From Zingiber officinale (lineage: Eukaryota; Streptophyta; Magnoliopsida; Zingiberales; Zingiberaceae), in the NCBI RefSeq assembly GCF_018446385.1, contig NC_055990.1:135668996-135732995 (forward strand): 64,000 nucleotides of DNA, given 5' to 3'. The position numbers and the translations under genes are program-made. Position 1 is the stretch's first letter. Each line of letters begins with the position of its first letter. The notes under the pieces are model-generated. The model was not told the DNA's origin and made no database searches. It was given only the letters and a program-made list of their open reading frames with translations. Positions 27,771-64,000 of this stretch are shown piece after piece.

Positions 27771-27781
27771 CTCTGATACCA
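27771..27781 (-). other. Primer binding site, initiator tRNA-Met
   Basis: The plus strand CTCTGATACCA is the complement of TGGTATCAGAG, matching the 3' end of plant initiator tRNA-Met. It lies two bases from the LTR edge at 27784, the normal copia spacing. Confidence 0.93.
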
Positions 27782-29723
27782 ATTGTTGGTTGGTCCTAGG
27801 AAGATCGTACCGGTTCCACTGTACAAAAATTTTATACAAGTGTCGAACCTTTCCTAAACAACCTATTGTGTTCTTTAGAAGTTAAATTAGGAATCGCAAA
27901 CAAAACTTAACATTATTGATTCTAAATTTAACTTATTTGTTCTTAATGGTTTAGACTTGGATCGCAAGCGAAACTTAACACTATTGATCCAAATTCACCT
28001 ATGTTATAAATTCAATTAAATATTAATTTCCAAAATTGGCTTGCAGGTTAAACATGGTGAGAGACTAGGCCTTTTTGGATATGGGAGCAACCACCACTTC
28101 CTATACAAAACCTTTTAAGGAAAGCTAATATTTAATTTCCTTATATAACTCTAAGTTTAACAAAAAAGAACAATCGAATCATAAATTTGAAAAATAAAAA
28201 AAAACACAAACTCGAATAAAAAATTCAAAAAACTAGAATCTAATACCTCTTGTGTTTGGAATTCATACAAAGAAAAATAACTAACATGATGCAGAAGAAA
28301 ATTACTAGTTATACCTCTTCTTCGTAAGTTAATAACCTCGAGATCTTCTGCCGTATTCCTCGCCTCTTCTTGGACGTCGTGTGGGCGACGATCCTCCAAG
28401 ATGAACACCACCCAAAGAGCTTCTCCTCCTTCTCTGAGTTTCGGCCACCACCACCACCAAGGAGCAAAAGAGAGCAAAGGGAAAAGAGAGGGAGAGAGGG
28501 ACGGCCACAAGAGGATCACTAACAAGAGAATAAGAATTGATAATGTCATGAGGCCTCTCCTCCCCTTCTTTTATATTACTTGCCCAAGATAAATAAGGAA
28601 AGACTTTTTACAAAAATTAAAATCTTCCTTTTGTTTTTCCTTTTCCCCTTTTATTTTTCTTTTTCTTTCCTCTTGATTGAATCAATCATCAATCATAGAT
28701 TGGATGATGATTTAATTTGGCCGGCCCTTTGCTTGGGCACCAAGCAAGGGTGGTCGACCCCTTAAAAAAGAAGGAAATAATTTTTATAAAATTTTATAAA
28801 AGAAGAAATCCTTTTATAAAATTTTACAAGCTCTCTTACCTATTGTGGATGTTAAAAAAGGAAAGTTTTAAAAATTAAAACCAAGTTTTAAAATTTAAAA
28901 CTTCTCTTCTAAAATTTCCTTTTTTAACATGGTTACAAAATTAGAAATTTTAATTTTAAAACTTCTCTTCATTTTTTCTAAAAACCATGAGGACGGTTAA
29001 AAAAGGAAAGTTTTAAAACTTTTAAATTTTCTTTTAAACCATGTGGCCTAATTCAAATAAGGAAAGTTTTATATTTTAAAATCTCTCTTTTAAAACTTGT
29101 AGTTTTCTACAAAGAGAAGATTTTAAAAATTCAAAACACCCCTCCTAATTTGACATATTATGGGTGGCCCCTCTTTGCTTGGACACTAAGCAAAGGGCCG
29201 ACCCCTTTGTGAAGGAGATTGGTCGGCCCCTTTGGCTTGATCACCAAGCCATGGGCTGGCCTCTTCTTGGACACCAAGAAGGGCTTTATATGGGTGGACT
29301 TGAGGCTTTAATGGGGCTACGATAGGGACCTAGAGGAGGAATTGGTTTTGGCCTTCCGATGAGCTTGAGTATCCCGTGTTCGCCCCGAACACACAACTCA
29401 AGTTCAGCAATAATAACTCATTCCATTAGAGAGTTATTATTGCACTACCGCACTAATCCCAAATTACATTATGGGATCCTTCATATATGAGTGTGTTAGT
29501 CTCCCTGTGTTTAAGATAATGAATGTCCACTAATTAAGTAAGTTACTGACAACTCACTTAATTAATATCTAGCTCCAAGAGTAGTACTGTTGGTGCAACA
29601 TCCCTCAGGTCAAGGTTGACCTGGGTGACCAAGCTGAGTCTTGGTTTGAGTTTAGATGTTTGACAATAAGAAATTGATTGAAGAAGAGTCAAGTAGGTCA
29701 AGGTTGACCGGATACTTGACAGT

Positions 29724-30023
29724 GAAAGTCCTGGTGAGTGAAGCCAGGCAGAAGGAAAACCCTAGTGAGTGAAGCTAGGTGAAAGTCCTGGTGAGTGAAG
29801 CCAGGCAGAAGGAAAGTCCTAGTGAGTGAAGCTAGGTGAAAGTCCTGGTGAGTGAAACCAGGTGAAAACCCTAGTGAGTGAAGCTAGGTGAAAGTCCTGA
29901 TGAGTGAAACCAGGTGAAAACCCTAGTGAGTGAAGCTAGGTGAAAGCCCTAGTGAGTGAAGCTAGGCAGATGGAAAACCCTAGTGAGTGAAGCTAGGTGA
30001 AAGTCCTGGTGAGTGAAGTCAGG
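29724..30023 (+). repeat. Minisatellite of small hairpins (CCTGG/CCAGG and CCTAG/CTAGG stems)
   Basis: About eleven units of roughly 24-30 bases follow the plan AAGT-CCTGG-TGAGTGAAG-CCAGG or AACC-CTAG-TGAGTGAAG-CTAGG. The arms change together between units (CCTGG with CCAGG, CCTAG with CTAGG), while the spacer TGAGTGAAG stays fixed. Some units are imperfect (TCAGG instead of CCAGG). The second LTR carries the same array at about 35453-35752. Confidence 0.93.
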
Positions 30024-30029
30024 CAAGGG

Positions 30030-30300
30030 AAAATCCAGATGGATCAAGGATGATCGGACATCTGGTGTTGGGAAGTCCAAGTAGGTCAAAGGATTGACTG
30101 GATACTTGGCACGAGGAAATCTGATGGAAGTCCAAGTAGGTCAAGGGAGTGACCAGATACTTGGCATGAATAGAAAAGTCTAAGTGGGTCAAAGGGATTG
30201 ACCAGACATTTGGTGGGAAGTCCTAGCAGGTCAAAGGAGTGACCAGATGCTAGGCATGATGTACCAACAGGTCAAGGTTGACCGGATGTTGGTTTGAGAG
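30030..30300 (+). repeat. Array of larger covarying hairpins
   Basis: Units about 45-60 bases long have the plan arm, GGTCAAxGGxxTGACC-like core, complementary arm. Visible pairs: CCAGATG (30035-30041) with CATCTGG (30059-30065); CCAAGTA (30077-30083) with TACTTGG (30103-30109); CCTAGCA with TGCTAGG; CCAACA with TGTTGG. The core GGTCA...TGACC can itself pair. The matching array in the 3' LTR is about 35760-36060 and has one additional unit. Confidence 0.92.
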
Positions 30301-30329
30301 GCTTGGAACTTGGTTTTGGGCAAAAACCA

Positions 30330-30600
30330 AGTGTTGGATCGATCAGTGGATCGATCCAGGAGCTAGATCGATCAGTGGATTGATCCAGGCTTCTCCTAAG
30401 CGAACAGAGAGCCTCTGGATCGATCCGTGGATCGATCCAGATGTTCCAATCGATTGGGACGCGGCTGCTTTGCGCGATAAGCGCTGGATCGATCTGTGGA
30501 TCGATCCAGGCATTTTTCCAGAGCACAGAGGCGCTCTGGATCGATCCGTGGATCGATCCAAAGCCTCCCCAATCGATTGGGAATATTCGAATCGATCGGG
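30330..30600. repeat. GATCGATC stem-loop array
   Basis: Repeated pairs of arms such as TGGATCGATC and GATCGATCCA are separated by four-base loops (CGTG, AGTG, TGTG). Flanking bases covary. The array interrupts otherwise ordinary LTR sequence, and its translation in any frame gives artificial DRS-rich peptides. The partner array is 36094-36350. Confidence 0.93.
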
Positions 30601-31110
30601 ATCCGACCGTTGGCGTCGATAAAGGCCGTAGGCGTTCATTTCCTTCGGCATCTCTTCTCCGATTCACTCCAGATTTCTCGCCAGCTCCTCCACAGCACTC
30701 ACAAAGCTCAGATCGCCAGTTCTTGAAGGATCTTGGAAGTTTTTCAAGTCAAGAGGCGGATCAAAGCCAAGAAGAGAAGCTAGGGTTAGGGTTTATACTC
30801 ATTGTAAGCTTGTAAGCTTGTATTTCTTGTATCCTTTCCCTCTCTTCTTGTATTGAGTCTTGTAGGGCTTCTCCGCCCTTGCTAGTTACCATAAAGGAGA
30901 GTTTTATTTAGTGGAGGGTGTGTGTGTTGGTGTGGATTCTTGGATTAGTCACCTCTTGTGAGGTGGATACCAAGTAAACCAACCGTGTTAGCGTTGTGTG
31001 ATTGTTCTTTGTATTTCCGCTGCACATCTTTGAAGGAACAAGCAACGCCGAGCACCGAGCGAACGCGACGAGCTATTCACCCCCCCTCTAGCTACTTTTG
31101 GTCCTAACAA

Positions 31111-32742
31111 GTGGTATCAGAGCGAGTCCGCTCTTCACCGGAATCATCGCCGGAAGGGTCAAGCATAACAAGAAAAGCTAGAGGGGTGAAGAAGTTGGAG
31201 CAAATTCTTCAAGTTCAAGATTTTATCAAGCTCAACTTCAAGATGCAATTCCAAGATGGACTTGGATTTGACACAAGGGTGGCTCCACCATATTCATCTA
31301 CAAGCTTCGATTCTTGGAAATCAAGAATCGAAAATTTTCTTATGATGGAGATAGAGCAATGGTTTGCTCTCATGGAAGGTTTTGAAGCTCCCACTAATTC
31401 CAAGGGCAAAGTACTCAAAAGGAGCAAGTGGAGCAAAGACCAAATCCAAAGATGTGAGGCCAATGACAAAGTGACCAAGCTTTTGGTCAATTTATTGCCA
31501 AGCAACATCTTGGAACAAATTGGAGAGTTTGAAGATGCCAAGGAGCTTTGGAGCAAATTGGCAAGAATTCATGAGATCCCCTCCACTGTATCAAATCAAG
31601 GAGAATCCAAAGAGGGCGACTCATTGGATCAAGACCAAGAGGAGGACTCCGAGGTTGAGAGATGCTCAACCTCCGAAGAAGAAGTTCAAGAAGAAGCTTC
31701 ATCTTCAAGGGAATGCAACGAAGGGAACAAGGAGGGAGCATACTCCTTGTTTCATATTCAAGATGATGAAGCCTCCACCTCTAGGATTGAGGGGGAGCAA
31801 TCCTTGGTGACACCGGATCAAGAAGAAGGAGAAGCTTCTACATCCGGGTCAAGAGATGAAGAGATTGAAGAAGCTTCTACCTCCACGAGTCAAGAAAAAT
31901 CAAATGGAGGAGAATCAAGATCGGATCAAGAGGAAGCTTCTACCTCCGGATCCAAAGGGAAAGATGCCACCCCTACAAGCAAAGGTATAAATATTTCAAT
32001 TAAAAATAAAAATCATATTATATGCTTTGAGTGTAGGGAACATGGGCACTACAAGAGCAAGTGCCCTAAATTGGCCAAGAAGAAGGGCCAAGTGGCACAA
32101 AAGGGCAAGGCGAAGCCCAAGGAGACCATCCCCGGAATAAAAAGGAGCAAGGAGCACATTGTGTGCTTTTCTTGCAACCAAAAAGGGCATTACCGAAGTC
32201 AATGCCCCAAGGGGAAGAAGATGGTCAAGGCTCAAGGAGGCATTCGTCAAGGGAGAGCCTCCAAGGTATATCATTTTAATGCTATTTACCATGAAAATAG
32301 AAAGCATGATAGCGTTAAAGAAAAACATATAGCTTTTCATGCTAAAACTACTACACCTAAGGCTAGGAATGTAAGTAAAAGTCTAGGCAAGAACTCTAAG
32401 GATTGTATCTACAAGCCTAGGCACAAAAATGCTCATGAACTTAATGGAAAACCAAAAACTAAGGACTTAGTGATGGAAAATCAAGTCTTGAGGTCAAGAC
32501 TTGATAAAATGGAAAAGACCCTAAAAAGGATGGAAAATATTCTATTAGGGCAAAATGAGCATAACCTAGGTTTAGGGGTACAAAAGTCATCCAATGGCCA
32601 TAGAGGTTTGGGATACAAACCAAAGGCTAAGAAGGATGTGCCCTCTTACCATAGAGTTCCATATAGTTATGGAACAAACCCTAGGTCTAGTGGTCAAGCC
32701 AAAAATACTAGGGAAGTCATCCCTAAGAGTATTTTGCAATAA
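31111..32742 (+). CDS. gag: Gag protein with two CCHC zinc knuckles (up to 543 aa)
   Basis: The open frame covers 31111-32742. It runs through the primer site, so its first codons are probably not translated; the first ATG is at 31243 (MQFQDGLGF). The capsid-type domain has SFDSWKSRIENFLMMEIEQW, KLLVNLLPSNILEQIGEF and AKELWSKLARIHE. A long acidic Ser/Glu-rich stretch with repeated EEASTS follows (about residues 165-290), then CFECREHGHYKSKCP near residue 308 and CFSCNQKGHYRSQCP near residue 352, then a Lys-rich tail. Gag packages the RNA in cytoplasmic particles. No stop or frameshift is seen through the two knuckles, unusual here among old elements. Confidence 0.92.
   Translation: MVSERVRSSPESSPEGSSITRKARGVKKLEQILQVQDFIKLNFKMQFQDGLGFDTRVAPPYSSTSFDSWKSRIENFLMMEIEQWFALMEGFEAPTNSKGKVLKRSKWSKDQIQRCEANDKVTKLLVNLLPSNILEQIGEFEDAKELWSKLARIHEIPSTVSNQGESKEGDSLDQDQEEDSEVERCSTSEEEVQEEASSSRECNEGNKEGAYSLFHIQDDEASTSRIEGEQSLVTPDQEEGEASTSGSRDEEIEEASTSTSQEKSNGGESRSDQEEASTSGSKGKDATPTSKGINISIKNKNHIICFECREHGHYKSKCPKLAKKKGQVAQKGKAKPKETIPGIKRSKEHIVCFSCNQKGHYRSQCPKGKKMVKAQGGIRQGRASKVYHFNAIYHENRKHDSVKEKHIAFHAKTTTPKARNVSKSLGKNSKDCIYKPRHKNAHELNGKPKTKDLVMENQVLRSRLDKMEKTLKRMENILLGQNEHNLGLGVQKSSNGHRGLGYKPKAKKDVPSYHRVPYSYGTNPRSSGQAKNTREVIPKSILQ
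31112..31123 (+). other. Primer binding site, initiator tRNA-Met
   Basis: TGGTATCAGAGC two bases after the 5' LTR end matches the complement of the initiator tRNA-Met 3' end. Confidence 0.93.
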
Positions 32743-32960: not shown

Positions 32961-35303
32961 ATGGGTTAGAGAGTGTCAACTCCGATTAGAAGGGTAGTTA
33001 ACCTGACTTTGAGGAAATTGACACTCAAGGAGCATTTTCAAGGTTTTTGTTAACCTTTGAAAATGAAGTGGATCTTTGTTTACTCCTTGAAAGAGTAAAA
33101 TGTGCCTAATGGTGGAAGAATTGATTTTAATCTAAAATGGCACAAATTGGGAAAACCTTGAGAAATACCAAGTTGGGATTTTGGTATTCTCTTGGAAATT
33201 TAAGGCAATCCGGGCCTTGATTTATGTAATCACTCTTGAGGAAAAATGAAATATGCCAACATTTGAGGACATGTTTATTTTCAATTGGCATACATTAAAT
33301 CAAGGAAATTAGAAATGCCAATTTAGGCTTTGGCATTCTCTTGTAGCACTTTAGGGCAATCTAGGTTTAAGTTGTAAGTTTAGCTAAGACTTTAAGGATA
33401 CTTAGATAGTTAATCTAGGTATATTTTATTTATGCTAAATCTTGCCATGATTGTTTGCCCATCATATGCCATGACATCATGTCTAGTTTTGCATTCATGT
33501 TTTATTATGAAAAATCCAAAAATACCATGTCATGACATTCATACATCATGTAGTAATAGGATATTTTCTTTTGAAAATTATTTTCTTTTGATGTATGCCA
33601 TAACATAATCATGCATTAAGTTTAATTCCTTGTAATTAAGGACGAATGGCATTTAACGACACTTATTGACAAGTGACATCCTAGGTGGATGACTAATATT
33701 TCTAAAATGCCTAGATAGATATGCATGATCCCTAGATTAGGGCAAAAACCAAAATCTACATCTCACAAAGACTATAAGGTGACTTGTATGTGATTAGTGC
33801 ACATTAGATACAAGTGAGATGTTAGGATGATGAACAAAACTCAACATGTTGATTTAGTGCATTCTTTTGAGTTTTTAGGTTCATCAAAACACATAGTTAT
33901 GTGTTTTCCCATCATTGGGAAAGCTAATGTACAAATCATGTGCATTATGCCCAAGGAACATGATGGGATATTGGTTTTGAAAATGTTTTTAAAATATTTT
34001 TGGAAAACCTTGGTGAAGGCTATCTTTTGATAGTAATCACCATTGAATAGTTAGACACAAACTTGAAGAAAAACACTAAAGTTTTTGTAAGTTTTCAAGT
34101 TTATGTCAATCTTTGAAAATATGATGTATTTTCATAGAAAGCTATTTTTCCATGATTAAGTATGCCCTAAATAATGTCTACACGAAATTTTATGATTTTT
34201 GAATTTTTGTAGAATTTTTTAGGGGTTTCTGAAGTTGACTGAAATGGAATTTCAGCAACTATCAGAGCTTCGATCGATCCATGGATCGATTGGAGTGCCT
34301 GAATCGATCAGTGGATCGATTCAGAAGGCAAGTCTCCCGCGAGCAGAAGCTCGCTGGATCGATCAGCCGATCGATCCAAGTAGTCTGAATCGATCAGTGG
34401 ATCGATTCAGAAAGGTTCAATCGATTGGAGCCCAACTCCAATCGATCCAAGTTGCTGATTTTGGCTGGGAAGGCCTGAATTCAGCATCTTTGAACCTCTT
34501 TGAGTCTAGGTAACCATTCCAAACCCGTAAAATACATTTGTATACACACAAAGGGTGTTTTCATGTGAAAACAAGGATGGATTGGTTAAGGAAGGCTTCA
34601 TTGAAGTTTAGGTTGAGGTTTGTTTCAAATTTTAAGTATTTGAACCTCAAAACTTCTAAATTTGGGTTTCCTAAAGGTTTAGGGATTCCAAGTCATTGTT
34701 GGTGCAATGACAGAAGTTACCACCATGTCTTTAGGGGGAGGGACTCTTTAAAGACATGAAAAATTTATTTTTCATGAACATTGGAAGGTGGTTAACCTTC
34801 TTTAAAGAAAATGCTCATGTATGAGCTTTTGAACTTGAAATGGGGAGTGGATATCCTCATTATTTCAAGTGGGAACTCAAGTGGTTAGATAATGCTCAAG
34901 GTTGGGTATTTGTCTACATTGAGGGAGAAGTTAAGGATAAATGAAGGGTATGAGACCTTCATTATCGTGTTGATCACAACGAGTGATGTTGTGAACAATG
35001 ATGAGTAACTCTTCAGGGGGAGAGTCGTCAACAAATGGATTTGTTGATGTGTACCCGAAATTGGGGCATGGGTTGATGTATGCCCAAAGATGGGTTGATG
35101 TGCGCCAATAGGGGGAGAATGAAAGGACCTATGAATGGGTGTAAGTTAGGCTTTCATTACCTAGAGGGAGTGTGCCCTCGTAGGGGGAGAATGAAGAGCT
35201 TAATTTATATGTTCATTACCTAGTGGCATGAAGATTGAGGCTATAGGATTAGCCTAACTTACATGTGGTATTGTAAGTGTTATTGTGGTATTGTCAAACA
35301 TCA
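32961..35303. other. Non-coding interior of the gag-only element
   Basis: No protease, integrase, RT or RNase H motif in any frame. It contains a GATCGATC stem-loop cluster (34250-34445) like that of the LTR and several GGGGGAG tracts (about 34734, 35016, 35108 and 35178) resembling extra polypurine tracts. The short plus-strand frame 33827-34030 has no domain I recognise. Confidence 0.75.
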
Positions 35304-35316: not shown

Positions 35317-36857
35317 TGTTGGTGCAACATCCCTCTGGTCAAGGTTGACCTGGGTGACCAAGCTGAGTCTTGGTTTGAGTTTAGATGGTTGACAATAAGA
35401 AATTGATTGAAGAAGAGTCAAGTAGGTCAAGGTTGACCGGATACTTGACAGTGAAAGTCCTGGTGAGTGAAGCCAGGCAGAAGGAAAACCCTAGTGAGTG
35501 AAGCTAGGTGAAAGTCCTGGTGAGTGAAGCCAGGCAGAAGGAAAGTCCTAGTGAGTGAAGCTAGGTGAAAGTCCTGGTGAGTGAAACCAGGTGAAAACCC
35601 TAGTGAGTGAAGCTAGGTGAAAGTCCTGGTGAGTGAAACCAGGTGAAAACCCTAGTGAGTGAAGCTAGGTGAAAGCCCTAGTGAGTGAAGCTAGGCAGAT
35701 GGAAAACCCTAGTGAGTGAAGCTAGGTGAAAGTCCTGGTGAGTGAAGTCAGGCAAGGGAAAATCCAGATGGATCAAGGATGATCGGACATCTGGTGTTGG
35801 GAAGTCCAAGTAGGTCAAAGGATTGACTGGATACTTGGCACGAGGAAATACAGATAGGTCAAAGGGATTGACCAGACATCTGATGGAAGTCCAAGTAGGT
35901 CAAGGGAGTGACCAGATACTTGGCATGAATAGAAAAGTCTAAGTGGGTCAAAGGGATTGACCAGACACTTGGTGGGAAGTCCTAGCAGGTCAAAGGAGTG
36001 ACCAGATGCTAGGCATGATGTACCAACAGGTCAAGGTTGACCGGATGTTGGTTTGAGAGGCTTGGAACTTGGTTTTGGGCAAAAACCAAGTGTTGGATCG
36101 ATCAGTGGATCGATCCAGGAGCTGGATCGATCAGTGGATCGATCCAGGCTTCTCCTAAGCGAACAGAGAGCCTCTGGATCGATCCGTGGATCGATCCAGA
36201 TGTTCCAATCGATCAGTGGATCGATTGGGACGCGGCTGCTTCGCGCGATAAGCGCTGGATCGATCCAGAGCACAGAGGCACTCTGGATCGATCCGTGGAT
36301 CGATCCAAATCCTCCCCGATCGATTGGGAATATTCGAATCGATCGGGATTCGACCGTTGGCGTCGATAAAGGCCGCAGGCGTTCATTTCCTTCGGCATCT
36401 CTTCTCCGATTCACTCCAGATTTCTCGCCAGCTCCTCCACAGCACTCACAAAGCTCAGATCGCCAGTTCTTGAAGGATCTTGGAAGTTTTCCAAGTCAAG
36501 AGGCGGATCAAAGCCAAGAAGAGAAGCTAGGGTTAGGGTTTATACTCATTGTAAGCTTGTAAGCTTGTATTTCTTGTATCCTTTCCCTCTCTTCTTGTAT
36601 TGAGTCTTGTAGGGCTTCTCCGCCCTTGGTAGTTACCATAAAGGAGAGTTTTATTTAGTGGAGGGTGTGTGTGTTGGTGTGGATCCTTGGATTAGTCACC
36701 TCTTGTGAGGTGGATACCAAGTAAACCAACCGTGTTAGCGTTGTGTGATTGTTCTTTGTATTTCCGCTGCACATCTTTGAAGGAACAAGCAACGCCGAGC
36801 ACCGAGCGAACGCGACGAGCTATTCACCCCCCCCTCTAGCTACTTTTGGTCCTAACA
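35317..36857 (+). mobile_element. 3' LTR of the gag-only copia element
   Basis: Near-identical to 29588-31109 apart from a few substitutions and indels located at hairpin repeats: a full unit present here at 35851-35882 is absent from the 5' LTR, and two GATCGATC hairpins differ (36205-36228 and 36255-36268). It ends GGTCCTAACA before the TSD AGTAC. Confidence 0.93.
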
Positions 36858-37007: not shown

Positions 37008-38116
37008 TGTTGGTGCGGTTTGCACTAACGATTTAACCCAGGTTTTGATGAATGACAAATCAGGTTAAGTTAGCTTGTTGTTGTCTAAACACTCTGATCG
37101 AGTGTGCAAGAAAAGTCCAGACAGGTTGACGGGCTGATCAGATGTCTGGCACGAAGCCCAGCTAGGTCGACGGGCTGACAGGATAGCTGGCGAGAAGTCC
37201 AAGCGGGTCGACGGGCTGACCGGACGCTTAGCGAGAAGTCCATCTAGGTCGACGGGCTGACCGGATAGCTAGCGAGAAGTCCAGACGGGTTGAAGGGCTG
37301 ACCGGACGTCTGGCAGGTAAGTAAGGTAAGTCACTAGAGGGGAGTGACTGCGAGGACGCGTTCCCGGGAAGGGAACATTAGGCCTCGATCCAGCTTAGAT
37401 CCATTTCGGATATCTAAGTCGAGATCGTGACTAGATTCCGGTCTCGGAAAGACGGAATTTAGGTCATACTCTGTTTTGTTAAGTTATACTTCTTATACTA
37501 AACTCATAAACTGTGCTAACACTTTATTTCACAGGATCTATTTGTTTCGGACTAACCTTGTTTTGTAGGAAAGTTGTTCGCTGGAAAAAGGTGGTCCGGG
37601 CGTCCGGAGGTCCGGGCGCCCGGGAGGCAAAAATTATCCTGACCGCGCGTCGCCACTTGGAGCTCACTGGTTGGACTTGCCACGTCTCACGAGGGCGCCT
37701 GGAAGGGATCCAGGGCGCCCCGAGCTTTATATAAAAGATGGGGCGTAGGCAAAGATCAGAATCAACTCAGAACTCTTAGACTGCTTGCTCTACTGCTCTG
37801 CGCTCCTGCGACGCTAACGAATATCCGACAATACGCTCTTTTCCTCGTCTTTAATTCTTGTCGGTATTTATTTTATTTTCATTAGCATTTCTGTACTTTA
37901 AATTGTAATAATATTCGAACTGCTAGTGATTGCCCAACGAAAGTACTCAAGGAGTACGGGCCTTCGAGTAGGAGTTGTCACAGGCTCTGAACGAAGTAAA
38001 AAACATCGTGTTCATCTGTCTAAGCTGTTTTATTTCCGCTGCGCTTAACTCTCTTATACTCGTTGTTTTTCGAATCGATATTCACCCCCCCTCTATCGAC
38101 ATTTCACGATCCAACA
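37008..38116 (+). mobile_element. 5' LTR of the second gag-only element
   Basis: It includes a five-unit covarying hairpin array (37115-37315), a GC-rich palindromic stretch around GGGCGCCCGG (37600-37625), a plausible TATA context CTTTATATAAAAG near 37724, and ACCCCCCCTC before the end CGATCCAACA. The partner LTR (43347-44495) differs by an extra GC-rich segment of about 50 bases near 43945-44000. Confidence 0.92.
37115..37315 (+). repeat. Five-unit covarying hairpin array
   Basis: Each unit of about 41 bases is AAGT-arm-GGTCGACGGGCTGACCGGA-complementary arm-CGAG. Arms: CCAGAC/GTCTGG (37117 and 37144), CCAGCTA/TAGCTGG (37158 and 37184), CCAAGCG/CGCTTAG (37199 and 37225), CCATCTA/TAGCTAG (37240 and 37266), CCAGACG/CGTCTGG (37281 and 37307). 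The core GGTC...GACC also pairs. The 3' LTR copy at 43455-43655 has CGCTTGG in unit 3, restoring full pairing. Confidence 0.95.
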
Positions 38117-38130: not shown

Positions 38131-38403
38131 AAGTACCGCTCTGATTTGGTGCAACCACCAATCAAGCAAAGGGGGGTCGTTTTAAAAAAAAAAATACATC
38201 GCCATCTTTTCACCATTGTTTAGTATTTAAAAAATATTACATTTTCAAAATTTTGAAATAATATTTTTTTCAAATATTTTATTAATATTTTAATAATATT
38301 TTATTATTTTTTCTGAAAATAGTGAAATATTTTTTTTTTCAGCACTGCTAATCCAAGACCAAGTCTTGGGATTTTTTTTTCTATTTCTTTGTGTGCAAGA
38401 ATA

Positions 38404-39210
38404 ATGACTCTTCAAGAAGGACGGAACCCCCACGAACCACCACCATACGATCAAGATTTCTACTATTGGAAGCGATTAATGGAATGCTTCTTAGGAAGCG
38501 TAAACTTTGATTATTGGCTGATATTGAGAAAACCTTCTCAGAACTCAAAACTAAACACAAATGTAAGTAAAATCATTTGTAATGTTTTACCTAACAATGT
38601 TTTATGCAGAATAAAAAAGTACAAAGATGCACATGAGCTTTGGACCCAATTGATCAAACTTCACGAGGAGCCGATGGAGCTCGAGGATCAAGTAAAAATC
38701 GAATCCGAACTCGGGTTAGATCCAATCGAAAAGCCTACTGAATTAGGGGTTGCGCTCAAGGTTAGTGAGATTTACAAAAATACCCCTAGGATATTATCTG
38801 ATAAAACAAATCCAATTAATTTTAAAAATTCAAACTTGAACCTAAACAAATCTGAAAACTCAAATGATAGAGATGACAAGCTCAATATTGATCTAGATAA
38901 AATTAATAAATTATTTGATAATCTAGACAATATTAATTTAGAAAATCCTATCCAAACCCAAGATAATTTAATTAATAAAAAATTAAATTTTAATGATAAA
39001 AATAATCTAATAAATTCCACTAATTATATCAACTTAAAAAATAAAGAAAATATAAGAATAAAATCTAACACTTTGATAAAATCAAAACTAAATTTAAGAA
39101 AATTAAAATTAAATGTTAAAAATAACATATTAAATAAAGATAATCTGAAAATTTCAAAATTAACAATTAATAAAAGGTTAAAAGATAAACCTTTAAAGAA
39201 ATATAATTGA
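38404..39210 (+). pseudogene. gag: Truncated gag with Asn/Lys-rich low-complexity tail
   Basis: The frame opens with an ATG at 38404 (MTLQEGRNPHEPPPYDQDFY). Residues up to about 90 match the copia gag start: DFYYWKRLMECFL, KIICNVLPNNVLCRIKKYKD and AHELWTQLIKLHEEP. After residue 120 it dissolves into repeats of Asn, Lys, Leu and Ile that simply translate AT-rich DNA, and it ends at 39210. No zinc knuckle. The protein may be non-functional or keep only the capsid N-terminal part. Confidence 0.8.
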
Positions 39211-42200
39211 AACAATTTAATTAATTCAAATTTAAAAATGAATAAAAACTAAAACTTTAAAAATAAGCTATTAAAGAAAGATAATTCAATTAACCTAATA
39301 AAAGTGAAATTGAAAGAAAATTTAAATATTAAATACATTCTCTTAAAGAAAGATAATTTGACTAATTTAATTAATTCAAAATTAAAAACTTGAATTTAAA
39401 TTACAAATTAAACATTAAATTTTAACCAAAACTTAACTATAATAAACCTAGAACCTAAAACGAAAATTTAAGGCCAATAATTCAGGGGGAGGCTCCAGAA
39501 TAGCTGGCACCTCCAAAACTAACTTACCCGATAGGGTAACCCAAACAAACTAACCCGATAGGGTAATTAGGATTAGTTAAAAAGGGACCAAGTCTAACTT
39601 GAATCCTCGTACTGGTGAAGTTTTTGGATGATAGTAAGCTAGGGAAGCTTGGGCATCGCATGTCTAGAAAGATATGACTTCGATCTGGTGCATTTAGCCA
39701 AGTGGAACTGACCGAAACTACCCTTAAATGGATCCTAACTAGTTAGACCAAGGTTTAGTACTAAGCTCCGTGGATAGGACTATTCGGAAAACCTCGAAAG
39801 GTTGGTTACTTCTAATGACGTCCAAGTGACTCACCAAGCTTAGAAGTTTATCCGAATAATTTCTATTTGTTGAGACAAAAGCTAAACCTGAATCTAACAC
39901 AAGTTAAACCAAACTCTATAATTAAATCTAATTCATCTCACAAAATTATAGGATTCCCTGATTGAAAACTTAGATCAGGTGAGATGATTAAGGATCAAAA
40001 TTAAATTAAATTAATTAAATTAAATTTCAAGTTAAATTAATTAAATTAAATTTTGAATTAAATTAATTAAATTAAATTTCGAATTAAATTAATTAAATTA
40101 AATTTCAAATTAAATTAATTAAATTTCGAATTAAATTAATTAAAGTTACGATTAATTTATGTTGAAAATTAAATTAACTTTAAAAATTATTTTTGAAAAT
40201 TAAATTAAATTTTATTTTAAAATTAAATTAACTTTAAAAATTATTTTAAAATTAAATTAACTTTAAAAAAATATTTTAATTTAACTTTAAAAATTACTTT
40301 AAAAATTATTTTTGAAAATTAAATTAATTTTAAAAATTATTTCTGAAAATTAAATTAACTTTTATTTTAAAATTAAATTAACTTTAAAAATTATTTTAAA
40401 ATTAAATTAACTTTAAAAATTATTTTTGAAAATTAAATTAACTTTTATGTTAAAAATTAAATTAACTTTAAAAAATTATTTTAATTTAACTTTAAAAATT
40501 ACTTTAAATTTTAACTTTAAAAATTATTTTTGAAAATTAAATTAACTTTAAAAATTATTTCTGAAAATTAAATTAACTTTAAAAATTATTTTAAAATTAA
40601 ATTAACTTAAAAAATTATTTTTGAAAATTAATTATTATTTTAAAATTAAATTAACTTTAAAAATTACTTCTGAAAATTAAAAATTACTTCTGAAAATTAA
40701 ATTAACTTTAAAAATTATTTTAAAATTAAATTAAATTAAATTAAAATTTAATTAAAATTAAACTTAAATTTTAATTAACTTAAAAATTTATTTTAAAAAT
40801 AAAAATTAAATTTTTTTAACTTAAAAATTTATTTTAAACTTAATTTTTTTTAACTTAAAAATTTATTTTAAATATTAACTTTATTTTTTTTAACTTAAAA
40901 ATTTATTTTAACCTAAAAATTATTTTAACTTAAACCTAAAAATTATTTTAACTTGAAAATTTATTTTAACCTAAAAATTATTTTAAATTAAAAATTTATT
41001 TTAACCTAAAAATTATTTTAACTTAATTATTTTTTTTTAAAAAAAGAAAAACTCTTTTAAAAAACAATTTTAAAAATTCTTTAAAAACTATTTTAAAAAT
41101 TCTTTAAAAACTATTTTAAACATTCTTTAAAAACTATTTTAAAAATTCTTTAAAAACTCTTTTAAAAATTCTTTAAAAACTATTTTAAAAAAAATTCTTT
41201 AAAAACTATTTTAAAAATTCTTTTAAAACATTATTTTAAAAAAACCTTTTAAAAAATCATTTTAAAAATTCTTTTAAAATTATTTTAAACTTTTAAAAAT
41301 CATTTTAAAAAATTCTTTTAAAAATTATTTTCAAAAACTTTTAAAAATTATTTTAACATAAAAATTATTTTAACTTAAATTTTTTTTTAACTTAAAAAAT
41401 AATTTTAAAATTATTTTAATATAAAAAATTATTTAAAAAATTATTTGAAAATTTTTTAAAATCATTTAAATAAATCTATTTTAAAAATAGTTTTAAAACT
41501 ATTTTAAAAATTATGTATCATTTTGAAAAATTCTTCTTATTTTTTTCACTAAAAAAATAGTAATAATAATAAATTATTTCTATAGATTATTTTCACTTTA
41601 AAAATTATTATTTTAACTTTAAACTCATTTTTAATCTTAAACATCATTTTAAACTTAAAATTATTTTTTAATTTAACTTAACTGAAAATTAAATCTTAAA
41701 TTAAAACTTAATATTAAAATTACAATTAAAATTAAAAATTTAAACTTAAACTTAAAATTAAACTTAAACTTAAATTAACCACTAATATTAATTTAAATCT
41801 AAAATCAAAACTGAATCAAACGTATATTAATTGATATAAAACATATTATAAAAATCATTTTAAATTCCTTTTAAATGCTGTTTTAGAAATCCCTTTAAAA
41901 AAAAAATTAAATAAATAAAAAATAATAATAATAATTATAACTAACACTTTCATTGACCAACTCAATCAGGTAATATGAAATTTAAATTATTTCACTAAGT
42001 ATTAAATTATTAAATCAAGTAAAAACTAATCAATAAATTATTGATAATGCTTAACTGTTATTGAATTAATAAAATCTTATTTTATTTAACCTTAAACTAA
42101 AGTTAAGCGCCTGAATCTAAAATTAATTAATAATTGATTAATTAAATTCAAATAAACAGTTATACCAAGGATACAGAGATAATAATATAAGTGTTACTAA

Positions 42201-43333
42201 ATTAGACAAATGTGTTAGGGCTTTTGAAATTTAACACAACCAAACCTTAGTATTAACTTAAGGGGAAGATATTAAATTAAGGGGAGTAACTAATTCAGGG
42301 GGAGGTTTTTTTTAATCTCCTTAAGTGTTATTTTTTTCTTTAAAATCTCTTTAGAAAATTCTACCCCAATTACTTTGAAAATCTTATATTAAAATTCTTA
42401 GCAAATATTTTCAAAAGCCTTATTCTAGATGTCAGGTTCAGGGGGAGAAATAAAACTAATTCAGTTTTTCAAATTGAATTTTAAACTTAATTTTGAAAAT
42501 CAAAGTTTAAAATCAACTTGTTTAAAATTGTGGAAATTTTTTTATCACAAACTTTTTATCCTTTTTACTTAGTCTTTGAAAACTGAACTTTTCAAGTATT
42601 TTAAACCATGGTTTTAAAACTAGTACTCTTGAACTTTGAAAAATTGATTCTGGAAAAAGAATTTTACAAAATTATTTTGAAAACTCCTTTGTTTTAAAAA
42701 TTATTCTACTTTGAATATTTTTAGCAAATACTTTCAACATGTTATGTTAGGTTCAGGGGGAGGTATTAATTAAAATTTTCCCTTTATTTTAAAATTTGTG
42801 TTTGAAAAAAAATTTTCTTAAAAATTTCTTAAACCTAGTTCTTAAAATTTGATTTTACTTAATGTTGACATTTTGATTTGAAAGTTAAATTTTACAAAAA
42901 TTAGTTTTAAAAAATTGCTTTGTTATTGAAGATTGTGGAAATTAGATTTTTGAAAACTTATGTTTGAAAACTTGAATTTTTAACTTTGACCTTATAAACA
43001 ATACTTGAAAAATTATCTATCTTTCAAAATTACAAAGTTATAAATCAGCTATCTTTCAAGACTTAGTTTTTTTTAAGAAATAAAAGCTAAATAAACTATG
43101 TTCTAAACTCCCCCAGATTAACTTGACATTATTTCTTACTTTGTCTGAAATATGTATTTATGCTTACTTAATCCATGCTTACTTTTGATGAATGTCAAAG
43201 GGGGAGGGTTAGGTGGTTAAGTTAGCTAAACCAATTTGAAAATACAAACTAACTTTAAAACCACATAAATGCATGTTGTCATGTTGTTTTATGCATATGT
43301 TTACACTAACTTAACCAGGTTGTCATTCCATCA
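39211..43333. repeat. AT-rich low-complexity interior of the second gag-only element
   Basis: Between about 39990 and 41740 the sequence is an irregular array of AAATTAAATTAAC, TTTAAAAATTATTTT and TTGAAAATTAAA blocks with unit lengths near 30-60 bases, grading into TTTAAAAACTATTTTAAAAA repeats. Flanks are less repetitive. GGGGGAG tracts at about 39485, 42299, 42440 and 42757 resemble polypurine tracts. No frame longer than a few dozen codons. The array is like an expansion of the AT-rich gag tail. Confidence 0.85.
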
Positions 43334-43346
43334 AAAAGGGGGAGAT
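43334..43346 (+). other. Polypurine tract of the second gag-only element
   Basis: AAAAAGGGGGAGA directly before TTGTTGGTGTGG of the 3' LTR, identical in context to the tract at 35304. Confidence 0.9.
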
Positions 43347-44495
43347 TGTTGGTGTGGTTTGCACTAACGATTTAACCCAGGTTTTGATGAATGACAAATC
43401 AAGTTAAGTTAGCTTGTTGTTGCTAAACATTCTGATCGAGTGTGTAGGAAAAGTCCAGACAGGTCGATGGGCTGATCAGATGTCTGGCACGAAGCCTAGC
43501 TAGGTCGACGGGCTGACCGGATAGCTGGCGAGAAGTCCAAGCGGGTCGACGGGCTGACCAGACGCTTGGCGAGAAGTCCAGCTAGGTCGACGGGCTGACC
43601 GGAAAGCTGGCGAGAAGTCCAGACGGGTCGAAGGGCTGACCGGACGTCTGGCAGGTAAGTAAGGTAAGTCACTGGAGGGGAGTGACTGCGAGGACGCGTT
43701 CCCGGGAAGGGAACATTAGGCGTCAATCCGGCTTAGATCCATTTCGAATATCTAAGTCGATATCGTGACTAGATTCCGGTCTCGGAAAGACGGAATCTAG
43801 GTCATACTCTGTTTTGCTAAGTCATACTTCTTATACTAAACTCATAAACTGTGCTAACACTTTATTTCGCATGATCTATTTGTCTCGGACTAACCTTGTT
43901 TTGCAGGAAAGTTGTTCGCTGGAAAAAGGTGGTCCGGGCGCCCGGAGGGGATTCGGGTGCTCGGGAGGCACCCGGGCGCCCGGGAGGCACCCGTGCGCCC
44001 TGGAGGCAAAAATTATCCTAACCGTGCGTCGCCAGTTGGAGCTCGCTGGTTGGACTTGCCACGTCTCACCAGGGCACCTGGAAGGGATCCAGGGCGCCCC
44101 GAGCTTCATATAAAAGATGGGGCGTAGGCAGAGATCAGAATCAACTCAGAACTCTTAGACTGCTTACTCTACTACTCTGCGCTCCTGCGACGCTAACGAA
44201 TATCCGACAATACGCTCTTTTCCTCGTCTTTAATTCTTGTCGGTATTTGTTTTATTTTCATTAGCATTTCTGTACTTTAAATTGTAATAATATTCGAACT
44301 GCTAGTGATTGCCCAACGAAAGTACTCAAGGAGTACGAGCCTTCGAGTAAGAGTCGTCACAGGCTCCGAACGAAGAAAAAAACATCGTGTTCATCTGTCT
44401 AAGCTGTTTTATTTCCGCTGCGCTTAACTCTCTTATACTCATTGTTTTTCGAATCGATATTCACCCCCCCTCTATCGACATTTCACGATCCAACA
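43347..44495 (+). mobile_element. 3' LTR of the second gag-only element
   Basis: It begins TGTTGGTGTGGTTTGC and ends GATCCAACA before the TSD GTAAT. It is close to 37008-38116 with scattered substitutions and an additional CCCGGGAGGCACCCG-type duplication. The small frames here translate the GC-rich repeats. Confidence 0.93.
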
Positions 44496-47558: not shown

Positions 47559-47795
47559 TGTAACGACCCGCCTTCTACTACTAAGCTGTAAGGCCGATCG
47601 CTACAGTTATGCTGAGCTAACTGTGCGGAAAACTGATCTAATTTAAATTTTAGTTGCTAACTGATAACTATTCTTGGTTCTACATGTACTGAAGGATGTA
47701 CTCTAGGAATACCAGGTGTATCCTACATCCCCTATGAACTAGAAGCTGATCTGCTAAGTTTCTTGGTCGAAACTGAACTTCCCAATCGATCCAGA

Positions 47796-48200
47796 CTGAA
47801 CTGGGTCGATTGCTCTCTATTGGATCGATCCATGGATCGATCCAGACTGCTACTGTACTCGGGTGATAATCTGGATCGATCGGCTGATCGATCCAGGCTC
47901 ACTGATCGATCCAGTGATCGATCCAGCGTGCTTCTGTGCACGGGACTTTATTTGGATCGATCGGCTAATCAATCCAACATAGGTCAATCGATCCAATGAT
48001 CGATCAAAAACCTTTCTTTTCGCGGGGGATAGCTTGGATCGATCGACCGATCGATCCAAAGGCCTTCTGTTCGCGACAGAATGTGACTGGATCGATCGGA
48101 TGATCGATCCAGAAGCCTTCTGTTCACGGAATCAGCCCTCAATCGATCCATGGATCGATCGGGGACCCCAGATCGATCCATGGATCGATCGGAGTTTCTG
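47796..48200. repeat. GATCGATC stem-loop array in the Ty3 LTR
   Basis: At least eight pairs of arms: TGGATCGATC (47821-47830), loop CATG, GATCGATCCA (47835-47844) is typical; others use loops GGCT/CAGT/GACC/GGAT. The array is retained at 55165-55565 in the other LTR. Arms and spacing are the same as in the unrelated copia LTR at 30330-30600. Confidence 0.93.
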
Positions 48201-58163: not shown

Positions 58164-59394
58164 TGTAGGATCATTGCGTTAGAGGGGGTGAATAACACTC
58201 GTGGCTAATTCATTTTGAAAAACATGATCAAAGATAATATAGCGAAAAGAAAGACAGAAGGCCCGTGATCGTTGACCGCTTTCATTGGGAAATTCACTAT
58301 CAGTTCGGCAAATCTTTACAAAGATGAATATAATGGATTTATAATTTAAGTGCAGTAATTAAAAGTATACCAACAACTTATGGGGATCTGGAAGGTTGTC
58401 CTTTTAGTTGTTGGAGTCGTGTCACTCTATCGTCGGAGTTGTGTTTCTCGGTTGTTGGAGCAGCGTCACTCGGTCATCAGAGTCATGCTGTGGAGTCACA
58501 AGAACATCTTTGGAGTAGTGCGCAAGAATGCAATTGCAAATGCAATCTTTGTTTTGTCTCTTGGTGGAGTGCTGCTTATATAGGTTGTTCCGAGTGCTTG
58601 GATCCCTTCTGGGCGCCTAGACCGTGATGTTAGCCCGTCCAATCAGTGCGTTCCAACCTGGCGATGAGAGAAGTTTTGGCATTTCGAGTGCTTGGACCAG
58701 ATCTGGGCGCCTAGACCAACTCCGGGTGCCTAGACCAGCTTCGGGCGCCCGGACTGACTTTTTCAACAACTTATTTTCTTGTAAAATAAAGTCAGTCTAG
58801 GCAGTATAAAATATATGTAAAATATGAACTTGACAGCTTCTGACTATCCGATTCTGACTTTGAGTGTCTAGTTCTAACTTTGAGTTCGACTGAAACTCTA
58901 AGTCGAACAGACATCTACTATTCCCTCATTGGGGGAACGCGCCCTCAGCTACTCTTTTCAGGAGAGTTTACCTTTTTCCAGACTAGTCCTCCAGACCATC
59001 TGGAGTTTTGCTTAGCGTTCGAGACTTTAGGTTTTCATGCTGAACGTCTGCTCCACGGCCCGTCCAGACTTCCACCCGGTCTGCGACCACTAGGATTTTC
59101 ACCTAGAGTTCCCAACTTTAAGATTTCACCCAAAGTACTCGACCCACTAAGCCTTCGCCTTTCCTAACCTCAGTTAGGACTTTCCACCACCTAAGTTTAC
59201 CTCCCGTAGGACCTAAGGTTACCTCCCCCTAGGATTTTCCACTTGCCTAGAATCTACTAGGACTTTTACCTAAGAACACTTAGGACTTTCTTGCAAGCTC
59301 ATTCAACCTTGTTAGACAACAAGTAACCTTAACTTTGGACCTTTTACCATAATCAAAACTTAGGTTTGATCGTCTGGTGCTCCCTGCACCAACA
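58164..59394 (-). mobile_element. 5' LTR of a minus-strand copia element, 1231 bp
   Basis: The plus strand starts TGTAGGATCATTGCG and ends CCCTGCACCAACA; on the minus strand it begins TGTTGGTGCAGGG, like the other SIRE-type LTRs here. GC-rich GGGCGCC repeats lie at 58600-58755 and a hairpin array at 59160-59330. Its 3' part of the element (pol and 3' LTR) is missing. Confidence 0.85.
59160..59330 (-). repeat. Covarying hairpin array
   Basis: Read on the minus strand: CCTAAG-TGTT-CTTAGG (59271-59286), CCTAG-TAGATT-CTAGG (about 59249-59264) and CCTAAC-TGAG-GTTAGG (about 59165-59180), each preceded by AAGT. The arms differ but match within each unit, as in the LTRs at 29588 and 37008. Confidence 0.88.
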
Positions 59395-60392: not shown

Positions 60393-62098
60393 TGTTGGTG
60401 CAATCGACCCCCGAGGTTTTAATGTCCAACAAATATATTTAAGTATGTTTAATGGTGCTTAGTCTTGGAAAGTCCTAGTTGTAGGCTAGGCAAGGGAAAT
60501 CTCGGTAGATCGTGGAAGCCAGGTGGATTCGATAGATCTGGAGGATCTAATCCCTGGGTAGCCGAATACTGAATCCTAGTTGTAGGCTAGGGATGAGAAA
60601 TCTCGGTAGATCGTGGAAGCCATGTGGATATATCTGAAGGACCTGATCCTTGGGTAGTCGAATACTGAGTCTTGGTGAGTAAAGCTAGGTGGAGAAAACC
60701 CTAGGGGGTGGTAACCTTAGGTTCTAGTGAGTGAAGCCAGATGGAGAAAATCCTAGGGTGAGATAACCTTAGGTAACGAGAAGTCTTGGAGGAGTGAACT
60801 CCAAGCAAGGTTAATCACGCAGTCGACCGGACCAGCTGATCTTGGTGATCCTAAGTTTAGTTTTACCATAGCATTCTATATTACTATTATTGCTGCTGGC
60901 TAATGTAGTATTGTAGGAAATGCCTTAGTGGATCAGGTGATCAGACACTGAGCAGAGAAAGTTCAAACAAGTCTGGAGGACCAATGTTTAGCAAGTAAGT
61001 TGAGCAAGCAACTGGAGGAGTAACAGTGAGGTTGTGTTCCTGAAAGGAACAACCTAAGGTCGTTAATCCAACTGAAGAAATTTGGAAGGTTTCCAAGTTG
61101 ATATCAAGACAGTTGAACTATCTATTATTATTACCCATGCATTTATTATTAGTGTGCTAATATCTGTTTTACAACATTATTGTCTAACACTGTTTTGCAG
61201 GTTTGGCCTGATCGGTCGATCGAACAAGGCCAATATAGAGAAGATATTTGTTCAGACCAAAACAGAGCAAGGTCCGATCAAAGCTTGATCGATCGACCGA
61301 ACAAGATGATCGGTTGACCGAACCCTGATGACTCAGCACAGTTCATATCGAGTAGAAGCAAAGAAGGAAAGCTTGCTGATCGATCGACCAAACACATGGA
61401 TCAGTCGAATGGACAATCATCACATTAAAGGCGCAGTAAGTGCAAATCTTGGCAAATTTCGATGAACAGGGAAGGATCCTATTTGGTAGACCGAAAAGAA
61501 GGATCGGTCGACCGAACCCTTAATGGTCATTAAATATCGAAGATCGAATCAGTATCAGATCTCAGCGAAGATGGAAGGGAGATGGTTCGGTCGACCAAAC
61601 GCAAGGATCGGTCGATCGAACGTCGACGACTCTTATAAAAGTGAGCTTGAGGCCCGAGGCTGTGTAACGAAGCAATGAAGCAAGAAATCTGTTCGAATTT
61701 CATCTTTGTGCAAGCTACGATTCATGCTATGACTACTCATTTACTGCTCCAAGAAGTGCCGACCGAGCCTCGACTTTTATATACTGTCGAAATAACTTTC
61801 TTTTGCTTGCATTGTACTTAATTCAAGTAAGATAGTAGGTTGTTACTATCTTACTCATCTTCTTGTATGCACTGCTTCTTTCCGAGGTTTTCAAAAAGAA
61901 GAGTTTTAGTGAATTGTCCAATGGTACGATTAAGGATCATGGGTCTTGGAGTAGGAGTCGAGCTAGGCTTCGAATCAAGTAACCAAACGAGTCATTTACT
62001 TTCCGCTACATATTCTAATTGTCTTTAAAACATGTAAAGAAAAGATTTTAGAGTGTGATATTCACACCCCCCCTCTATCGCACTCTTTCGATCCTACA
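60393..62098 (+). mobile_element. Solo LTR, 1706 bp
   Basis: It begins TGTTGGTGCAATCGACC and ends TTTCGATCCTACA; AGATC flanks both sides (60388-60392 and 62099-62103). No primer site or interior follows, and the interrupted integrase sequence continues directly (after AGATC: ATATAGGCCTAATG). It holds CCTAG-TTGTAGG-CTAGG hairpins (about 60475-60600) and a GGTCGACC/GGTCGATC palindrome cluster (61209-61625). Strand is assigned from the terminal sequence, which ends like the plus-strand LTRs. Confidence 0.95.
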
Positions 62099-62961: not shown

Positions 62962-64000
62962 TGTTGGTGCAAGTTGCACCAGAATCAAACCTGAGTTTTG
63001 ATGTTGTCAAAGGTTCAAGTTAAGTCTTGTTGTGATCTAACAAGTTGACTAAGTGTGCAGGATGTTTACTCAACCGGGAAAGACCTAGTTGGAGGCTAGG
63101 CAGGAGAAATCTTAGCAGTTCGTGGAACCCAGGTGCAAGTCCAAGTGGGTCGAGGGGACCAGATGCTTGGCGGTGTGATCGAGAGGTCTGGAGGATCGAA
63201 GATCAAAGGAAAAGTCCTAGGGAGCCGATCAAGGCTGAGTGAAAAGTCCAAACTAGATCTGGAGGATCTAAGTTTGACAGGTAGGTTGAGGTAAACAACT
63301 GGAGAGCGACACTGAGGTCGGGTTCCCGAAGGGAACAACCTTAGGTTGCTGATCCAACTGAAGAAACTGGGAAGGTTTCAAAAGTTGAAATCAAGACAGT
63401 CCTACTGTCTTGCATATTATTCCTGCTTCATATTATTGCTCTAACATCTGTTTTGCAGGAGACTTTTTTGTCTAATACTATTTTGCAGATCTGAGCTGAT
63501 CGGTCGACTGAATAGTAGGATCGGTCGACCAAACCAAGCAGAATCAGCACAGAAATCAGATCAGATCAAAACTGAGTCCAAGTCAGATCAAAGCTTGATC
63601 GGTCGACCGAACCGTAAGATCGGTCGACTGAACCATAGTGACTCATCACAGGACAGATCATCAACATCGATCAGCAGTAAAGGAAATAAGCTGATCGGTC
63701 GACCGAACCTGGGGATCGGTCGACTGATCCAATCAGCATTTATTCAGCATTAAATGATGATCTCGGCAAAATCACGACGAACAGGGAAGGAAGCTGTTCG
63801 GTCGACCGAAGGGCATGATCAGTCGACCAAACCATTAAAGACCAGTAAATGTGAAAGATCGAGGCCAGCTTCGAACTTCAGCCAGGAAGGAAGGGAGCGG
63901 GTTCGGTCGACCGAACAGTGGGATCGGTCGACTGAACCTCCAGTACATCTATAAAAACAGGCTCAAAGACAGAGGCAAACAGAACCTTCTGATCAATTCT
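62962..64000 (+). mobile_element. LTR of a copia element, running off the window end
   Basis: It begins TGTTGGTGCAAGTTGCACC directly after ATACATGG in RT; the expected TSD would be CATGG (62957-62961), with its second copy beyond the window. Contents: CCTAG-TTGGAGG-CTAGG (about 63087) and CCAAGTG...TGCTTGG (63138-63166) hairpins, then a GGTCGACC array (63500-63945). The end AAACAGGCTCAAAGACAGAGG may lie near the transcript start (ATAAAAACAGGC, 63951). Confidence 0.85.
63500..63945. repeat. GGTCGACC palindrome array
   Basis: Units such as GATCGGTCGACCGAACC and GATCGGTCGACTGAACC alternate about every 25-50 bases (63501, 63525, 63597, 63619, 63693, 63713, 63796, 63817, 63902, 63922). The core TTCGGTCGACCGAA is a 14-base perfect palindrome. 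Units come in pairs with a short spacer, like the GATCGATC arrays of other LTRs. Confidence 0.92.

Follow-up and report, generated by a model that had tools for sequence, protein, structure and literature searches.

Bulged hairpins with compensating arms in the long terminal repeats of Sirevirus-type elements from Zingiber officinale

Palindromes are a recurrent feature of the long terminal repeats (LTRs) of Sirevirus elements. According to excerpts of Bousios et al. 2010 (PMC2829016), boxes of dyad symmetry recur ahead of the TATA box in the U3 (unique 3') half of these LTRs and are treated as candidate cis-regulatory boxes, while excerpts on the maize Sireviruses (Bousios et al. 2016, via PMC10760457 and PMC5311732) describe palindrome clusters that are foldable, highly variable in sequence and hotspots of small RNAs. 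In the parts of the literature that served as a basis here (these three papers, PMC3601003 and PMC6911290), the Sirevirus LTR palindromes have so far been read as DNA boxes or as sources of small RNAs, and none of the titles and abstract openings surveyed describes LTR hairpins with compensating arms. Here I analyse such hairpins in a stretch of 64,000 nucleotides from ginger, Zingiber officinale (RefSeq assembly GCF_018446385.1, contig NC_055990.1, forward strand positions 135,668,996 to 135,732,995; hereafter the window), by its content apparently repeat-rich plant DNA, where two Sirevirus-type elements, A and B, carry tandem arrays of bulged hairpins in their LTRs. The reading that I favour, with confidence slightly better than even, is that of a hairpin array in the sense RNA of Sirevirus-type elements, located at the 3' end of the transcript and selected for its shape. 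The anatomy of the units, their covariation, their recurrence in four LTR families, the G-U asymmetry and the uncompensated differences between the LTRs of one insertion are observed; that RNA is the selected form, and that the copy in the 3' LTR is transcribed, I infer.

The array was noticed in element B, in which an earlier note had claimed five consecutive hairpin units in the first LTR as well as in the second, and both rows are indeed present:

37008..38116, plus strand: 5' LTR of B (LTR1), TGTTGG...CCAACA, with target-site duplication (TSD) GTAAT, polyC signal and junction CA/AGTGG/TATCAGAGC
43347..44495, plus strand: 3' LTR of B (LTR2), directly after AGGGGGAG-AT
37117..37313, plus strand: array of B LTR1, five bulged units of 33 nucleotides (nt) each, at 37117, 37158, 37199, 37240 and 37281
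43455..43651, plus strand: array of B LTR2, units at 43455, 43496, 43537, 43578 and 43619

The two LTRs differ by 46 mismatches in 1108 aligned positions, and in both of them the five units follow each other with a period of 41 bp, above which a higher-order period of 82 bp is also present; three of the four 8-nt spacers between the units are alike. Counted from the start of the LTR, the array occupies 109-305 bp; the TATA box (TATATAA, 37728) follows about 0.4 kb downstream. Each unit can be parsed as an outer arm (7 nt), an inner stem (5), a loop (6), the returning inner stem (5), a bulge on the 3' side (3, AGA or GGA) and the returning arm (7). The two-tier stem with pairing GGTC...GACC that had been proposed is there as far as the inner stem is concerned, but the bulge separating it from the outer stem had gone unmentioned. 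Likewise, the core GGTCGACGGGCTGACCGGA, previously described as constant, is exact in two of the five units of each LTR and differs by 1-3 bases in the six others. Most of the variation falls in the arms: differences per site and unit pair amount to 0.60-0.68 at the four inner positions of the 5' arm, against 0.07-0.12 in the loop. Pairing nevertheless holds, with 7, 7, 6, 5 and 7 Watson-Crick pairs out of 7 in units 1-5 of LTR1, and 7, 6 (plus one G-U), 7, 6 and 7 in those of LTR2. The claim of differing but complementary arms is thus correct in substance, as is that of perfect pairing in unit 3 of LTR2, though arms had been named for four units only, and unit 4, which was left out, pairs least (5/7 in LTR1, 6/7 in LTR2). 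The mean pairwise identity of whole units, 76% in LTR1 and 78% in LTR2, falls inside the range of 66.5-100% published for copies of the repeated motifs (RMs) within one Sirevirus element (PMC2829016); here, the differences sit mainly in the arms.

The same unit recurs in element A, a second Sirevirus-type element with TSD AGTAC, whose LTRs show 15 mismatches in 1498 aligned positions and 67 gap columns:

29588..31109, plus strand: 5' LTR of A (LTR1)
35317..36857, plus strand: 3' LTR of A (LTR2)
29689..30293, plus strand: array of A LTR1, seven bulged units at 29689, 30035, 30077, 30132, 30180, 30222 and 30263
35418..36052, plus strand: array of A LTR2, eight bulged units at 35418, 35764, 35806, 35850, 35891, 35939, 35981 and 36022
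29730-30023 (LTR1) and 35459-35752 (LTR2), plus strand: short hairpins, 11 per LTR, with 5-bp stems and the loop TGAGTGAA followed by G or A

The short hairpins come with two types of stem, CCTGG/CCAGG and CCTAG/CTAGG.

To what extent the arms change together was assessed in an alignment of 13 units (LTR2 of A and LTR2 of B) with 12 pairs, or 156 cells, against 500 shuffles. Pairing is found in 98.1% of the cells (shuffled mean 84.0), and 7 of the 12 pairs have changed on both sides, in 27 cells altogether, where the shuffles give 3.9 and 8.1 and not one of the 500 reaches either value; the covariation score is 0.556 vs 0.265. When the register is slid, at most 5 cells are changed on both sides, and RNAalifold, unaided, recovers the same 12 pairs. 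Permutation of the 3' arms reached the observed pairing in 6 of 20000 trials for A LTR1 and in 4 of 20000 for the eight units of A LTR2, and in none of 20000 when the LTR2 units of A and B (13 units) or their LTR1 units were pooled; for B alone, with few units of which some are alike, it did so in 321 of 20000 trials in either LTR. On a neighbour-joining tree of 15 units, 5' and 3' changes (18 and 19 in total) coincide on the same branch 10 times, against a null mean of 1.9 (0/20000), with no coincidence on outer pairs 2 and 7; the sites that built this tree include the arms, so that the number is inflated. None of the nine differences between LTR1 and LTR2 at paired sites of the long, bulged units is matched by its partner. 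The compensatory changes above shuffled and slid controls support the selection on base pairing that the earlier note had suggested; the roles it offered, namely packaging, dimerisation, a protein scaffold or transcription control, are candidates.

Both strands of the window were also searched with a descriptor that required a GRTC..GAYC core, a 7-bp stem with six or more of its pairs formed and, on the 3' side, a bulge of 3 nt. It gave 22 matches, where 30 dinucleotide shuffles average 0.17. An RGA bulge is present in 19 of these, and three are ATCGAT palindromes. Other bulge sizes are also found above the shuffles, with 57 matches for no bulge, nine for four and eight for five nucleotides; ATCGAT is contained in 55/57, 9/9 and 1/8 of these, respectively, and at least five of the eight are minus-strand re-readings of known units. 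A covariance model trained on the 13 units returned 27 matches at E < 0.001 in the whole window, all on the plus strand and all with the RGA bulge: 25 in A and B, and one in each of two further LTRs, C and D. The inner stem is GGTC(A/G)/TGACC or GATCA/TGATC, with variants. The LTRs concerned, together with a fifth, are:

60393..62098, plus strand: solo LTR C, TSD AGATC, with one bulged unit at 60924-60952
62962..64000, plus strand: LTR D, truncated at the end of the window, with one bulged unit at 63141-63170
58164..59394, minus strand: LTR E, with promoter-distal hairpins in its own sense and a degenerate candidate at 59067-59040

The model scores the unit of C at E 5.7e-4 and that of D at E 7.3e-5, the same with filters on or off, whereas a sequence-only model finds D at E 9.4e-5 but, with filters off, no more than a portion of C (E 3.2). 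Neither C nor D contributed to the training, yet this was not a blind test, as both had been spotted earlier by eye and by the descriptor. The next match is at 29604 (E 0.036), followed by nine more up to E 1; six of these weaker matches are on the minus strand, and five of the six are palindromic units read backwards. For a fragment of an LTR end at 57233 and for the LTRs of a copia element on the minus strand (primer-binding site at 27778), the whole-window search gave no match up to E 1 save a chance-like one at 22620. Among the five examined LTR families beginning with TGTTGGTG, four (A-D) contain the bulged unit, and E has no significant match to it. Its first occurrence is 101 bp into the LTR in A, 109 in B, 179 in D and 531 in C. 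Rfam 15 gave no match at gathering score in the window, the core pattern had no exact match in viral contigs, and no plasmid matched the LTR.

The earlier note had left it between RNA and single-stranded DNA. Here the imperfect pairs are informative, since an A-C pair is a G-U pair in the opposite strand. Over 12 long and 11 short unit pairs, nine cells have a non-Watson-Crick pair common to the two LTRs; all of them read G-U in the sense strand and none A-C. These nine represent five independent events, as five cells are a single change inherited by all B units. Exceptions identical in both LTRs are most likely older than the insertion. Those present in one LTR only (n=10) are 4 G-U, 3 A-C and 3 other. 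The direction of this asymmetry is as expected from selection on sense RNA that was released after insertion, and it favours RNA over a DNA palindrome, although the numbers are small. Folding energies are also in part remarkable: single units of A fold well (z -2.16 to -4.75), and the array of A LTR2 reaches z -5.68 (20 shuffles). A stretch of A outside the array (30620-30900) gives +1.72 and +1.04, and with spans up to 42 nt the sense strand is favoured in C (-3.3 vs -1.32) and in D (-2.71 vs -1.58).

Several observations, however, weigh against a selected RNA shape. Exceptions in single-copy units are 5 G-U, 2 A-C and 2 other. Folded without restriction, the B array does not outdo its dinucleotide shuffles (z -0.92 and -1.62), its best fold joins arms from different units, and the single units of B are unremarkable (z +0.27 to -2.21). 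A neighbouring part of U3 in B (37330-37560), outside the array, has just as much structure (z -3.12 and -3.66). When spans are limited to 42 nt, antisense gives z -2.42 and -4.46 in B, against -0.59 and -2.78 for sense; in A, LTR1 gives -8.19 on both strands and LTR2 -11.86 for antisense vs -6.71 for sense. As the antisense values in A and B are equal or more extreme, energy does not favour the sense strand. Further pair types are not above the shuffles (14 vs 13.5, 236/500), the units are paralogous and few, units 1 and 5 and units 2 and 4 being alike within B, and the covariance model finds no significant unit in LTR E, where the candidate at 59067 has kept its 7-bp outer stem and AGA bulge with a broken core. 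The folding energy of the whole array, with z near that of shuffles, was dropped as evidence for B.

Elements A and B show five published signatures of Sirevirus (Ty1/copia) elements. In both (2/2), the 3' LTR is preceded by the polypurine tract (PPT) octamer AGGGGGAG and joined to it through AT/TG, as defined in the excerpts of PMC2829016. Identical PPTs are clustered before the 3' LTR, five in A (34733, 35015, 35110, 35182 and 35307, with one more at 31790) and five in B (42297, 42440, 42755, 43199 and 43337, with one more at 39484). An inverted repeat around the terminal PPT has blocks of 10/10 and 9/9 nt in B and of 13/14 nt in A, which are short and amount to modest evidence. The junction of the 5' LTR and the primer-binding site reads CA/AGTGG/TATCAGAGC in 2/2, the rule being CA/A(T/G)TGG/TATCAGAGC; a similar junction precedes the minus-strand copia element (27778) too, so the junction alone is weak for membership. 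Finally, the polyC integrase signal CACCCCCCC(C)TCTA precedes 4/4 LTR ends of A and B, and is also found in C. LTRs C and D may be called Sirevirus-type from their LTR start, and C from this signal as well. The parts concerned in the interior of A and B are:

43250..43346, plus strand: terminal PPT of B, with the left inverted-repeat arm and the attachment site AT/TG
38389..39210, plus strand: open reading frame (ORF) of B, 273 amino acids, gag-like by eye
31108..32742, plus strand: gag ORF of A (stop to stop), with two zinc knuckles (zf-CCHC, 28.4 bits)

A tblastn search with three copia pol pieces from the window detected no pol in A or B, for which reason both are probably non-autonomous. 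The gag of A resembles Retrotran_gag_2 (PF14223) weakly (20.7 bits, under the cut-off of 27), and its sole database relative is a partial protein labelled Salmonella enterica from a contig of 1013 bases, which is probably contamination by plant DNA. The ORF of B is the only one of 120 or more amino acids listed inside that element, and neither Pfam nor a homologue search gave a match to it; AT-rich tandem repeats of about 1.8 kb (40000-41800) occupy part of the interior of B.

In LTR elements generally, the U3 of the 3' LTR belongs to the genomic RNA. Transcription would hence place the array at the 3' end of the genomic RNA, as a series of bulged hairpins that follows the PPT and precedes R (the repeat region). 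These U3 stem-loops, which form tandem arrays in A and B, would act in cis as RNA structure. A unit may be recognised by its shape together with the near-constant core (inner stem GRTCR/TGAYC, bulge RGA), and the near-constant parts, namely inner stem, bulge and the 8-nt spacers of B, are candidate protein contacts. The 7-bp outer stem would need only to pair, which would leave the arms free to drift by compensatory change. The possibility that the array serves as a packaging signal of the 5' leader was also considered and rejected: its copy in the 5' LTR precedes the TATA box by about 0.4 kb and is thus not in the leader, so that as RNA the array belongs to the 3' LTR part of the transcript. 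For elements without pol, the ligand that seems likeliest to me is the Gag or nucleocapsid of a helper element; the array would then mark transcripts for mobilisation, among them those of A and B, in which no pol was detected. This is a tentative proposal, to which I give clearly less credence than to the hairpin array as such. More doubtful still is a shared RNA address label, in which hairpins with interchangeable arms would mark the 3' ends of Sirevirus transcripts for Gag binding, one helper would package several families, pol-less ones included, and the arms of neighbours would vary so that each hairpin folds alone. If the favoured reading is true, this second array, distal to the promoter and built of units with compensating arms and a common bulge, would be evidence for selection on RNA shape in LTR retrotransposons, and would give a testable cis signal for the mobilisation of non-autonomous plant elements.

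Alternatively, the palindromes may function as DNA. If the core GGTCA..TGACC bound a dimer of a transcription factor, the array would be a set of promoter-distal regulatory palindromes and the arms by-products, which I consider unlikely. Several units of A hold TTGAC half-sites, which I take to be W-box-like, and the antisense strand of A and B pairs equally well, as a DNA palindrome would; in addition, the array is in U3 upstream of the TATA box, and the excerpts of the Sirevirus literature read LTR palindromes as candidate cis-regulatory boxes (PMC2829016). However, the compensatory change of the arms and the asymmetric 3-nt bulge are left unexplained, the shared G-U pairs break the dyad symmetry of DNA, and units of B have CTGACC or variants where those of A have TTGACC or GTGACC, with pairing kept. 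Chance and recent tandem duplication of a single palindrome, followed by drift, could account for the 82-bp period of B, for the nearly identical arms of its units 2 and 4, and for the arm permutation result of B on its own. As A with B reaches the observed pairing in no permutation, the build is common to four LTR families and covariation is lost in slid registers, I regard this as very improbable indeed.

Covariation could also arise without selection, if changes in one arm of a quasi-palindrome were copied into its partner by template switching while the DNA is reverse-transcribed or replicated. Short hairpins whose arms match almost perfectly are hot spots of template-switch correction, a point in favour of such an artefact; yet the RGA bulge has been kept in all 27 model-matched units instead of being corrected away, and none of the nine paired-site differences between LTRs was copied, which covers copying after insertion only and not during reverse transcription. 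This origin appears distinctly unlikely to me. Even less probable is that the hairpins face the host, with the transcribed array as a template for hairpin-derived small RNAs; an arms race would then drive the arms apart, and their pairing would be kept on other grounds. With 12 bp and a bulge, the units are short for Dicer-like substrates. The palindrome regions of maize Sireviruses are small-RNA hotspots according to the excerpts (PMC10760457, PMC5311732), but this reading offers no reason for the element to keep the pairing.

Besides the arrays, other structures are found in these LTRs. A second hairpin is located downstream of the arrays at 37360-37376, 43698-43714, 61036-61050 and 63322-63336 (plus strand), and loosely in E at 58938 (minus strand); its stem is GTTCCC/GGGAAC in B and D vs GTTCCT/AGGAAC in C, a compensatory difference. 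D also holds, at 63256, a hairpin with a 1-nt bulge (CAAACTA GATC TGGAG GATC T AAGTTTG), of a build unlike the bulged units. Matches to copia pol on the plus strand lie at 59406-59921 and 62631-62960, with solo LTR C between them and LTR D starting just after, apparently as nested insertions. Between array and TATA box there are further palindromes, namely GC-rich CGGGCGCCCG boxes in B, GGATCGATCC in A and CGGTCGACCG in C and D. Palindromes of the GGATCGATCC type are found in the LTRs and interior of A and in the flanks of a minus-strand Ty3/gypsy-like element (47780-48190, 55150-55561, 34264-34446, 30335-30567 and 36094-36324). The CGGTCGACCG palindromes of D are of the known Sirevirus RM type and distinct from the hairpin array:

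63497..63946, plus strand: TATA-proximal palindromes of D (CGGTCGACCG)

The closest described systems are these RMs. CGGTCGACCG in C and D equals the RM consensus of the Vitis Sirevirus (PMC2829016), and the array of B fits the RM traits of dyad symmetry, repeated copies and a position in U3 upstream of a TATA box, A having merely a TATA-like TTTATAC. RM cores such as CGGTCTGACCG, in the excerpts of PMC2829016, resemble GGTC...GACC. The CGG-CCG core of Sirevirus RMs was not found in the inner stems of the bulged units; the context CGGGTC..GACCGG occurs twice in B, in the third unit of LTR1 and the fifth of LTR2. In contrast to the RMs in these excerpts, the units have compensating arms and a 3-nt bulge, and they coexist with separate TATA-proximal palindromes. 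The inverted repeat flanking the PPT, described in the same source, is another pairing element by the same junction, but it is a single long repeat and not an array. The maize clusters, in the excerpts of PMC10760457 and PMC5311732, have the motif CACCGGACNNNGTCCGGTG without a 3-nt bulge, and compensatory change of arms is not described there. Known RMs and bulged arrays therefore seem to coexist in one U3 as separate features. A bulged retroviral hairpin is known from TAR (trans-activation response element) of the human immunodeficiency virus (HIV), a single copy in R with a stem, a 3-nt bulge on the 5' side, an upper stem and a loop. Without any claim of homology, the units described here share with TAR the succession of stem, 3-nt bulge, upper stem and loop in LTR-derived RNA; unlike TAR, they are repeated, are located in U3 and have their bulge on the 3' side.
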